From Bacillota bacterium (lineage in GTDB: Bacteria > Bacillota > Sulfobacillia > Sulfobacillales > Sulfobacillaceae), in NCBI GenBank assembly GCA_021784595.1, contig JAJYHT010000053.1, positions 1-64,000 on the forward strand: a stretch of DNA of 64,000 bases, given 5' to 3'. The translations under genes were made by a program, and so were the position numbers. Below, piece by piece: positions 48,108-51,315 of this stretch (within the stretch, counting starts at the first letter, position 1; every line of letters starts with the position of its first letter). The notes under the pieces were generated by a model that was not told the DNA's origin, searched no databases, and worked only from the letters and a program-made list of their open reading frames with translations.

Positions 48108-48344
48108 ATGGCTGTTGTGGTCTACACCACCCCCACCTGACCCCATTGCCGGACTGCTAAAAAGTTCTTGCAGGAGCGCAAAGTCCCTTTTAAAGAAGTG
48201 GATGTTTCCAAAGGGCCCCAAGCGGCGCAAGAACTGCAGCGAAAGTCTGGGCAAACCGGCGTGCCGGTGATCATAGTGAATGGAACGGTGATTGTGGGGT
48301 TTGACCGTCCTAAGTTAGTGCGGGCATTGGGTGTTCGTGAATAA
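48108..48344 (+). CDS. Selenocysteine-containing glutaredoxin-like protein (in-frame TGA)
   Basis: The 78-residue protein has a glutaredoxin/NrdH fold: strand VVVYTTPT, active site U11-P-H-C14, helix RTAKKFLQE, and the cis-proline block TGVPVIIVNG. Codon 11 is TGA (48138-48140), exactly where the first Cys of CPHC belongs. Downstream sequence is in frame, conserved and ends with TAA at 48342. ATG follows GTAGGAGGT at a normal distance. A SECIS-like hairpin starts 11 bases after the TGA. The convergent neighbour has the same TGA arrangement. It probably reduces disulfides or persulfides in the cytoplasm. Confidence 0.85.
48151..48167 (+). promoter_or_regulatory. Candidate SECIS hairpin 1
   Basis: GGACT / AGTTC form a 5-bp stem (one G-U) with a 7-base loop GCTAAAA; the loop begins 15 bases after the TGA. 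A G in the first two loop bases and a loop 16-37 bases downstream are the features of bacterial SECIS elements. The loop position is at the near edge. An overlapping alternative stem (CTGC / GCAG) also exists. Confidence 0.5.
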
Positions 48345-48381: not shown

Positions 48382-49032
48382 TTATTGTTTTTGGGCGTCC
48401 AACACCAGTTTTAGCAGTTGCGCCTCGGGGACCGCGCCAGTCACCTCGAGTTTGCCGTTAATCATAGACTTGGGAACCCCATAGACGCTATATTTGCTGG
48501 ATAGCTCGGGAAATTCCCCCGCATCAATCATATCAGCTACAATGTGCGGTGAAGCCAATGCCATATCATGAGCCAGGCGTACAGCCCGGGGACAATATGG
48601 TCAGGTGGGGGTTGTAAAGACCTGAATGTGAAGCGGCTTTGAAATCGTGGCTAACGCCTCACGCGCCTGATCGCTAAGACCGCTGGTATGTGTGGATACC
48701 GCTTTGAGCGCTTCAAGAAAAGCACCAAATTCATGCCCGCTGGGAATTCCTAAAAATCTCACTCCCGTTCGATTTCCGGTGTTGTCTAAGAGCTCGGCGA
48801 CAGGACCTGTAATAGTCTCATTGCCGCCATGCCCCGGTTCTAGCATCGGAGCCTTCTCGGTAGTTTTGACCATCACTAAATCGGAAAGGTCCGCCACTTC
48901 ATTAATCAATTCGTTAAAAGTCTCTGCCATTTCGGCTTCGGGTCCAGCGTAAAATTCGACGGTGACGGCATCCTGCATGCCGTCAAAGAACTGCGAGACT
49001 TGTTGGCTTACTTGACTGTCGAGCAATGCCAT
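48382..49032 (-). CDS. Selenocysteine-containing protein disulfide oxidoreductase (in-frame TGA)
   Basis: The gene encodes 216 residues with two thioredoxin-like units, like archaeal/bacterial PDO. The first unit has lost its CxxC (FYAGPEAEMAE). The second has VFTTPT-U144-P-Y-C147-PRAVRLAHDMALASPHI and the cis-proline YGVPKSM. Codon 144 is TGA (48601-48603) and the frame is open on both sides. The homologous motif is TPTCPYCPRAV, so the TGA replaces the first cysteine. A strong SECIS-like hairpin follows. ATG at 49032 is 10 bases after AAAGGAGG. Confidence 0.85.
48573..48589 (-). promoter_or_regulatory. Candidate SECIS hairpin 2
   Basis: On the minus strand CCGGGC / GCCTGG form a 6-bp stem (one G-U) with a 5-base loop TGTAC. 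The loop begins 18 bases after the TGA and has G as its second base, matching the bacterial SECIS pattern well. Confidence 0.6.
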
Positions 49033-49067
49033 GACTACAACACCTCCTTTTCTAAAAGATAGACGCT

Positions 49068-49688
49068 TTAAGTGCGTTGCACGGGATGGCGTGCCCCGAT
49101 CCATAATGACATCCCGCCGACCACGTTGGCGACGTTAAACCCTTGTTGGGAAAGCCAAGCTGCGACCGATGCGCTTCGGCTGCCCGATGCACAGACAATG
49201 GCGTGGGGCTTAGCTTTGTCGAGTTCCGACATGCGCGCTTGCAATTGTCCCATGGGAATGCTGATAGCACCAGGAATAATGCCAGATCGCAATTCATAGG
49301 ATTCCCGAACATCCACAACAATATAATTGTCAAGGTTTTGCAAGAGCTCGTCAACGGTTAAGTCATGAACTCGTGCAACCGGTAGGCCAGCTTGTTCCCA
49401 TCCCTTGACGCCTTGATCAAAAACGAAGGGCACGGTAATACCTGCTTCTTCAAGGCTATCTTTGGCCGATTGCGCAATCACACTATTTTCCGCGAAAATT
49501 CCGATGGGAGGATTTTGCCCATTTAAGGCCCTCTTTACCTCCTGGCCCCACTGGCGGCGATGGAATGGGAAGTTGTAGCTCCCCGCCGGATGCGCCTTAG
49601 AGTAAGCATGAGGCGGATTGACATCGAGTAAGATAACCGAACCTTGCTGTACTTGATTCATAAAATCCTGCGCAGTCATAGATGCCAT
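49068..49688 (-). CDS. Tandem rhodanese-domain protein, one active site
   Basis: Two rhodanese domains (about 1-105 and 110-206) occur in one 206-residue protein. The second has the catalytic loop IVCASGSRS with its cysteine, and VDVRESYELRSG before it. The first has IGIFAENSVIAQ where the loop should be, with no cysteine, so it is structural or binding. The protein would carry persulfide sulfur in the cytoplasm. ATG at 49688 is 12 bases after GGAGG. It is 28 bases downstream of the persulfide dioxygenase gene and 35 bases upstream of the Sec-PDO gene on the same strand, so the three may be co-transcribed. Confidence 0.85.
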   Translation of the reverse strand: MASMTAQDFMNQVQQGSVILLDVNPPHAYSKAHPAGSYNFPFHRRQWGQEVKRALNGQNPPIGIFAENSVIAQSAKDSLEEAGITVPFVFDQGVKGWEQAGLPVARVHDLTVDELLQNLDNYIVVDVRESYELRSGIIPGAISIPMGQLQARMSELDKAKPHAIVCASGSRSASVAAWLSQQGFNVANVVGGMSLWIGARHPVQRT

Positions 49689-49716
49689 GGATTCATCAAT
49701 CCTCCTTCTCTTAGGA

Positions 49717-50478
49717 TTAGACAGGCGCGGCCACGCCCAAGTTTTCAGCGCGGATAGCGGCTGCACTCTCTGGGGGCGGTTTTAAGAGCATGAGTACCTG
49801 TTCCACAAATTCGTCAGGTTCCGTGAATTGCACAAATCGGTTCCATCGACGTTCATAGCCAATGGTGGATACCGGTTTGGAACTGAGAAAAAGCCCTCCG
49901 CAGGCAGACGCCCCGTAATGTGCCGGATATAACTCGCATGTATCAGGCAATGTTAAAATTTTGTCGCGAATCGAATGAAACTGATCCAAAGCGGCTGCTT
50001 TAACCATTTCGGGGGTTGGGTCCGCTAGGTCTGGTCGTCCAACATCTCCCACAAACAATGAGTCGCCACTCAGTATGAGCCATGGTTCAGAAGCCCTGGT
50101 GGCATCGGTTACGACAAGAGAAATACTATCAGGGGTATGACCAGGAGTTTCCCACACCACGGCTTTGACGTGTCCTAAGTCAATGGTGTCGTTCTGACGA
50201 AGCGGATTGAAATCATAGGCTACAGGAGCCCGATGGCTGAGCGAGACCGGCACGCCCGTTTTTTGAGATAACTCGCGGGCCGCTGAATGATGATCGGCAT
50301 GCACATGGGTTTCGACTATGGCCGTTATCTCCAGTCCTAACTCGGCCGCTCCTAAGATATACGAATCAGCTCCTAGATTGCCCAACGGATCTACCACCAT
50401 AGCCTGCCCTTGTGCCTCGTCGCCTAGCAGAAATGAAGCGCACCCCAGTGACCCGTCCCACATCGGCACAAAAATCAT
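49717..50478 (-). CDS. ETHE1-like persulfide dioxygenase (MBL fold)
   Basis: The protein has the MBL motif THVHADHHSA (His58, His60, Asp62, His63), WETPGHTPDS, and the ETHE1-specific LFVGDVGRPDL. Family members oxidise glutathione or other low-molecular-weight persulfides to sulfite with an iron centre. Length is 253. ATG at 50478 follows GGAGGGAGAGC. It is transcribed away from the CsoR-family gene, and a CsoR-type operator overlaps its promoter. Confidence 0.9.
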   Translation of the reverse strand: MIFVPMWDGSLGCASFLLGDEAQGQAMVVDPLGNLGADSYILGAAELGLEITAIVETHVHADHHSAARELSQKTGVPVSLSHRAPVAYDFNPLRQNDTIDLGHVKAVVWETPGHTPDSISLVVTDATRASEPWLILSGDSLFVGDVGRPDLADPTPEMVKAAALDQFHSIRDKILTLPDTCELYPAHYGASACGGLFLSSKPVSTIGYERRWNRFVQFTEPDEFVEQVLMLLKPPPESAAAIRAENLGVAAPV

Positions 50479-50494
50479 GCTCTCCCTCCTCGCT

Positions 50495-50516
50495 TATATA
50501 CCACCTAGGGTATATA
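50495..50516. promoter_or_regulatory. CsoR/CstR-type operator palindrome
   Basis: TATATACC (50495-50502) and GGTATATA (50509-50516) are perfect inverted repeats around ACCTAG. CsoR and CstR operators have a similar TACC-CCTAGG-GGTA layout. The site lies between divergent genes, one of them a CsoR-family regulator, and overlaps both promoters. Confidence 0.7.
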
Positions 50517-50542
50517 ATGACGGTAGCAGCAAAAAAAGTCAA
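50514..50542 (-). promoter_or_regulatory. Promoter of the persulfide dioxygenase gene
   Basis: On the minus strand TTGACT (-35, 50537-50542) and CATTAT (-10, 50514-50519) are 17 bases apart. The operator covers the -10 box and the start point. On the plus strand a TATAAT (50513-50518) may serve the regulator gene. Confidence 0.6.
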
Positions 50543-50603
50543 CGGTATTTGTTTTGGCGGATCTAGCAAACTACTCTTAAGGGTAACCAGGGAGGGGATT
50601 ATT

Positions 50604-50909
50604 ATTCCAGACAAAGAACAGCCTGTGCGACCTGTGGTTATCGGGCAATATTGGGATACGGGGGACTTGATTCGTCGGATGCGCCGTATTGAAGGACAAG
50701 CTCGGGGCATACAAGCGATGTTAGAACGCGAAGAAGACTGCAAGGCCATCTTAACGCAATTGGCGGCCATGGCTGGAGCGCTGAATCAAGTGTCGCGAGT
50801 GGTAGGAGCTTGTGGATTAGTGGATAGCCTGAGACGAGAGGCTTCTCTGTTGAATCCGGATGATATAAGGGCTGTGCTGGAGGACTTGCAATCGAGAGGA
50901 AGACTATAA
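50604..50909 (+). CDS. CsoR/CstR-family repressor, unusual second Cys, probable ATT start
   Basis: The family core MRRIEGQARGIQAML and EEDCKAILTQLAAMAGAL is clear. Copper sensors use C-H-C and persulfide sensors use two Cys 29 residues apart. Here Cys46 is followed by Cys70 only 24 residues later (VVGACGLVDSL), and the usual His and second Cys positions are Gly and Ser. The start is uncertain: an ATT at 50604 is 8 bases after GGAGG; a GTG at 50625 is the nearest standard start. An ATG at 50517 lies on the predicted -10 box. DUF302 follows. Confidence 0.8.
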   Translation: MPDKEQPVRPVVIGQYWDTGDLIRRMRRIEGQARGIQAMLEREEDCKAILTQLAAMAGALNQVSRVVGACGLVDSLRREASLLNPDDIRAVLEDLQSRGRL

Positions 50910-50934
50910 TCTAACCAGAAAAGAGGCGTGGGCC

Positions 50935-51315
50935 ATGCTGGCATATACCAAACCGACCACCAAAACTTTAGAGGACGCCATTCAGAGTGTGCATCAAGCG
51001 GTGGACGCACACGGGTTTAAGGTGCTTAATGTGTTGAATATTGGGGAGATCCTAAAAACTAAGGGATTTGAGCGGGAGCCCATTGTCATTTTAGAAGTTT
51101 GTCATGCTAAGTCTGCAGCTGCCATGTTGTCTGAAACCATCGACATTGGATTGCTGCTACCGTGTAAAATCAATGTCTACCGCCAGGACGGGGAGATATC
51201 CATTTCAGCTTTGGATCCCACGATGATTAGCCAATTTTTTGACCAACCCAGCGTAACCTCGATGGCCAAGGAAATTGCCGCAACGATTAGGAGCATCGTT
51301 GATGACGCAGTCTAA
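50935..51315 (+). CDS. DUF302 protein
   Basis: The 126-residue protein has the DUF302 fold: KTLEDAIQSVHQAVDAHGFKV, then LEVCHAKSAAAMLSETIDIGLLLPCKINVY. DUF302 proteins are of unknown function but commonly sit beside rhodanese, thioredoxin-like and CsoR-type genes in sulfur oxidisers. It starts 25 bases after the CsoR gene and is probably co-transcribed with it. The two conserved Cys could bind a metal or sulfur. Confidence 0.85.
   Translation: MLAYTKPTTKTLEDAIQSVHQAVDAHGFKVLNVLNIGEILKTKGFEREPIVILEVCHAKSAAAMLSETIDIGLLLPCKINVYRQDGEISISALDPTMISQFFDQPSVTSMAKEIAATIRSIVDDAV

Follow-up and report, generated by a model that had tools for sequence, protein, structure and literature searches.

In AhpF, the N-terminal domain carries a single active CxxC, which lies in the second of its folds. 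A selenocysteine (Sec)-containing "homolog of AhpF N-terminal domain" was reported in Carboxydothermus and Symbiobacterium by Zhang et al. in 2006 (PMC1794560), and a 2026 review equates this homolog with TIGR02187, with a UxxC motif and with ABB15282.1 (PMC13188914). The use of Sec in Sulfobacillus is also known: a putative Sec formate dehydrogenase is reported for all Sulfobacillus genomes covered by one study (PMC4378227), and the Sec peroxiredoxin PrxU appears in S. thermotolerans proteomics (PMC7409299). Thus, Sec protein disulfide oxidoreductases (PDOs) of the kind analyzed here are already known, and the suggestion of the first-pass annotation that a two-domain Sec PDO was undescribed does not hold, since such members are covered by the 2006 report and by the review. 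No paper discussing a Sec PDO of Sulfobacillus was found in the literature searched.

We analyzed a stretch of 64,000 nucleotides (the window) from the draft genome of a Sulfobacillus relative (3.79 Mb, 101 contigs). The PDO gene on the minus strand runs from the ATG at 49032 to the TAA at 48382. It contains a single internal TGA, at codon 144 in the context FTTPT-U-PYCPRAVRLAH, and family-conserved sequence flanks the TGA on both sides, as the first-pass annotation had correctly read. When the TGA was translated as Sec, the product matched TIGR02187 (NCBIfam short name PDO_seleno_TRX, protein disulfide oxidoreductase) with 204.1 bits against a cut-off of 185, residues 6-212 being aligned to profile positions 2-208 of 209. 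The AlphaFold model, built with 24 sequences, shows two fused thioredoxin folds (pLDDT 94.6, pTM 0.91). The closest PDB structures were the Pyrococcus furiosus PDO (1a8l), over the whole length, and next the AhpF N-terminal domains. The N-terminal redox position reads AEMA, and the protein thus falls outside the archaeal-type PDOs as defined by CxxC in both domains. Among named relatives, Sulfobacillus benefaciens AMDSBA4 is the nearest, with 88% identity in the PDO protein. The features of the locus are collected in Table 1.

Table 1. Features at the PDO locus, in window positions.
Feature	Position	Strand	Evidence
Predicted selenoprotein PDO, 216 aa, two thioredoxin folds, UPYC site (Sec144, Cys147), no N-terminal CxxC	48382..49032	-	TIGR02187 score; AlphaFold model
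UGA codon 144, predicted to be read as selenocysteine	48601..48603	-	sequence; UGA or Cys at the same codon in homologues
SECIS-like hairpin CCGGGC-UGUAC-GCCUGG, starting 11 nt past UGA; loop G then U	48573..48589	-	covariation; synonymous conservation
Shine-Dalgarno-like AGGAGGTG, upstream of the PDO ATG	49039..49046	-	sequence inspection
Convergent glutaredoxin-like predicted selenoprotein, UPHC site	48108..48344	+	TIGR02196 90.5 bits and NF041212 72.9 bits, both above cut-off; UGA kept in close relatives
Rhodanese-domain protein, upstream of PDO; order kept in close relatives	49068..49694	-	PF00581; synteny
Metallo-beta-lactamase (MBL)-fold hydrolase resembling GloB / persulfide dioxygenase	49717..50478	-	PF00753; TIGR03413 and NF040641 below cut-off; synteny

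The first-pass annotation had proposed a search for UGA-containing homologues and a comparison with Cys forms, and both bear out its reading. TGA was found at the same codon in all nine Sulfobacillus PDOs (9/9), and TGT or TGC in the archaeal and most of the distant bacterial homologues. Since the TGA occupies a conserved position and corresponds, in the alignment, to the first CPYC cysteine of the Cys homologues, a chance TGA was ruled out. On a tree of 76 family members, 46 have TGA. A PDO match was obtained in 34 of the 41 relatives searched; for 31 of these, 30 belonging to the same order, one TGA is present in the best match. Within the order, a best match without TGA was detected only in G305 and G322. 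Both genomes are devoid of selA and selB, and their glutaredoxin gene, some 1 kb from that of the PDO, likewise encodes a Cys form. Because the two are congeneric, they count as one evolutionary event. They are a clean natural experiment: within the order, the absence of selA and selB goes with Cys codons in both genes.

Outside the order, the PDO match of the more distant, selA-positive G331 has no TGA, and a Cys glutaredoxin is found in several genomes with selA. Thus, Cys forms can also exist alongside the machinery. In two well-covered genomes that keep the UGA (G313 and G327), selA was not found in the assembly and selB is present; since UGA and selB are retained, these absences look like assembly gaps. 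A further assembly, G301, is only 63% complete. A tRNA-Sec was not found in G302, G303, G305 and G322 among the 150 candidates scored of about 400-500 per genome, and this result was not counted as evidence.

On the 76-row tree, which has several long branches and an unsure deep order, the Sec/Cys state needs five changes and the N-terminal CxxC state needs two. Sec PDOs are likewise found in several further families of Bacillota. A metagenome-assembled genome of Ignavibacterium sp., from a different phylum, carries a Sec PDO with TPTUPYC (L047, 5001-5633) that groups with Cys forms and keeps the N-terminal CxxC, which suggests an independent gain or a transfer. In Sulfobacillia and those other families, Sec PDOs are frequent, often in several copies, and their recognition helps to annotate these acidophiles. 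Gene calling under the standard code would end the PDO gene of the window at the UGA, although the gene is predicted to encode a real selenoprotein.

According to the bSECIS model, a bacterial element has a stem of 4-16 bp, a loop of 3-9 nt with an early G followed by G or U, and a distance of 16-37 nt from the UGA (PMC13188914). In the PDO gene, the UGA is followed by CCAUAUUGUCC and then by the hairpin, with a 6 bp stem, the 5-nt loop UGUAC, GU in the loop and 17 nt from UGA to loop, all within the model. In an alignment of 41 distinct Sec sequences, pairing holds in 94.3% of the hairpin cells, and double changes were detected in four of the six pairs (seven cells). This pairing and covariation was matched by none of 500 shuffles and lies far above that of slid registers, the shuffle and rank tests ignoring the relatedness of the sequences. 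As related sequences can beat shuffles without any structure, the comparison with slid registers and the occurrence of other helices, CCGUGC/GCACGG (L089, L090) and CCAGAU/AUCUGG (in the paralogue L098), are the stronger evidence for the hairpin. For invariant residues, codon identity reaches 0.76 over the first 14 codons past the UGA, compared with 0.43 outside this stretch (permutation p ~1e-5). When the 42 nt past the codon were folded and compared with synonymous shuffles, the mean z was -1.38 for the Sec forms (n = 46) and -0.21 for the Cys forms (n = 31).

The convergent glutaredoxin gene contains its TGA at 48138-48140 on the plus strand (codon 11, TTPT-U-PHC). NF041212, which it matches, is the curated subfamily "Uxx-star family glutaredoxin-like (seleno)protein". 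No convincing consensus hairpin was obtained by folding for the glutaredoxin (z -0.9 to -1.5). The prediction that Sec is used in both the PDO and the convergent glutaredoxin is strongly supported. An exact 14-mer spanning the Sec codon, ACCCCCACCTGACC, is common to window positions 48129-48142 (plus) and 48599-48612 (minus), and may reflect a shared coding constraint or gene conversion. Genome-wide, the pattern ACNCCNNNNTGACCNNANTG has three matches, two of which are the PDO and glutaredoxin genes; the other is at G000:C19:22836-22855 (L094).

L033 and the nearest relatives share the gene order MBL, rhodanese and PDO. A CsoR-type metal-sensing repressor gene and a DUF302 gene (window 50412-51315) stay beside this set in close relatives, and a set similar to these surroundings was found around Sec genes at L040. 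In the searches across the window, no match was detected with Rfam and no tRNA with ARAGORN; viral relatives were looked for and none was found.

The Sec genes that the first-pass annotation had wished to see checked were all located in the genome. A tRNA-Sec with the anticodon UCA scored 72.9 bits, selB 346.9 bits, selD 351.9 bits, with its own UGA in TTKSGUGC, and selA 541 bits, within C33:64640-65902 (L099, G000:C33:61000-69000). A second match to the tRNA-Sec model (L002) proved to be tRNA-Cys with the anticodon GCA and was discarded. The selA gene contains an in-frame TAA, in CAT TAA TCC, where His-Gln-Ser is encoded in close relatives and His-Thr-Ser in two that are more distant. The TAA is one base from CAA (the relatives have CAA or CAG), homology is full on either side, and the site precedes the conserved PLP-lysine motif. 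The TAA may stem from an erroneous base, be a polymorphism or mark a genuine loss of recent date; if it is real, the strain would be unable to make Sec-tRNA. It leaves the identity of the UGA in the lineage unchanged, and the selenoprotein in this particular strain is a predicted one.

A nonsense mutation in a pseudogene, or a base-call error, would also give an in-frame TGA, and the draft state of the assembly and the TAA in selA might be taken to favor this. However, some 30 related genomes share the TGA at this codon, including the complete chromosome of S. thermotolerans Kr1 (L027), and, against a pseudogene, the PDO sequence downstream is conserved and under extra synonymous constraint. 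Because the TGA is conserved across genomes, this explanation is already refuted, and we give it practically no weight. In place of the premature stop with decayed 3' sequence, or the double error, that the first-pass annotation had named as the contrary case, we found a conserved downstream region, the Sec machinery and relatives with the same codon. Alternatively, a suppressor tRNA or an altered genetic code might place a different amino acid, for instance Cys, at the UGA. Homologues have Cys, and Cys insertion would likewise yield a working enzyme. In contrast, UGA also serves as an ordinary stop, terminating 14 of the 42 chosen ORFs of the window, the UCA tRNA fits the tRNA-Sec model, SelB and SelD are present, and UGA is replaced by Cys where selA and selB are missing. 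Such a recoding is very improbable.

It is also conceivable that Sec decoding was just lost in this strain through the ochre codon in selA, so that the PDO and the glutaredoxin are now truncated here and are selenoproteins of the lineage. The substitution of TAA for the Gln codon of close relatives speaks for this, whereas a lone C-to-T change may be a polymorphism or a mistake of the draft assembly, and the UGA genes, the hairpin, selB, selD and tRNA-Sec all look intact. We regard this loss as unlikely, with a small but real chance; at the level of the lineage, it is compatible with the reading of the UGA as Sec. From comparative sequence evidence, the in-frame TGA of the PDO gene is almost certainly read as selenocysteine in a member of the known TIGR02187 family, and we are highly confident in the full explanation, in which insertion at UGA 144 would be guided by SelB and the hairpin.

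Mechanistically, SelB would bring Sec-tRNA(UCA) to the in-frame UGA, directed by the hairpin 11 nt downstream within the coding sequence. Insertion of Sec, which is strongly supported, would give the full-length PDO with Sec144 rather than termination. By the chemistry of the family, Sec144, in the UPYC motif of the second thioredoxin fold, would attack, and Cys147 would resolve the mixed bond. Since the first fold has no CxxC in Sulfobacillia, the PDO would be expected to function as a reductase with one redox site, comparable to the N-terminal domain of AhpF. Its electron donor is probably a flavoprotein of the thioredoxin-reductase type. The neighboring rhodanese and MBL genes hint at a role in the handling of persulfide and sulfane sulfur or of peroxide.

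As judged by sequence, loss of the N-terminal CxxC is a lineage-specific trait of the Sulfobacillia PDOs, in which UPYC is the only standard redox motif. Several Sec PDOs from other Bacillota retain the N-terminal CxxC. Two further PDO paralogues with UGA were detected in the genome, with APTUPHC (L097, G000:C44:154758-155393) and TPTUMFC (L098, G000:C45:97797-98201). Neither has an N-terminal CxxC, and both have the hairpin helix after the UGA. On C44, the paralogue comes directly after a rhodanese gene. As a tentative and rather doubtful proposal, a distinct single-site PDO may have evolved in Sulfobacillia, with the N-terminal CxxC lost and Sec kept at the C-terminal UPYC in several paralogues; paired with the convergent Sec glutaredoxin and lying next to rhodanese and MBL genes, it may be a dedicated selenium-based relay against persulfide or peroxide stress in these sulfur-oxidising acidophiles.

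Among the known systems, the Sec AhpF-N homologues of Carboxydothermus hydrogenoformans (ABB15282.1) and Symbiobacterium share with the PDO the TIGR02187 family, the UxxC motif and a single Sec; compared by description with the homologues of 2006, the Sulfobacillia forms differ in lacking the N-terminal CxxC. The archaeal PDO of P. furiosus (1a8l) has the same two fused folds over its full length (TMq 0.88, 30% identity, TPT-C-PYCP), but it has Cys instead of Sec, and CxxC in both domains. The fold is also shared with the AhpF N-terminal domain (6il7, 5h29 and 1zyn; TMq 0.83-0.84). In AhpF, however, this module is joined to a flavoprotein and relies on Cys, whereas the Sulfobacillus PDO stands alone and is predicted to use Sec. 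With respect to the Uxx-star family NF041212, it is the partner glutaredoxin that passes the cut-off, and the PDO is not the member.
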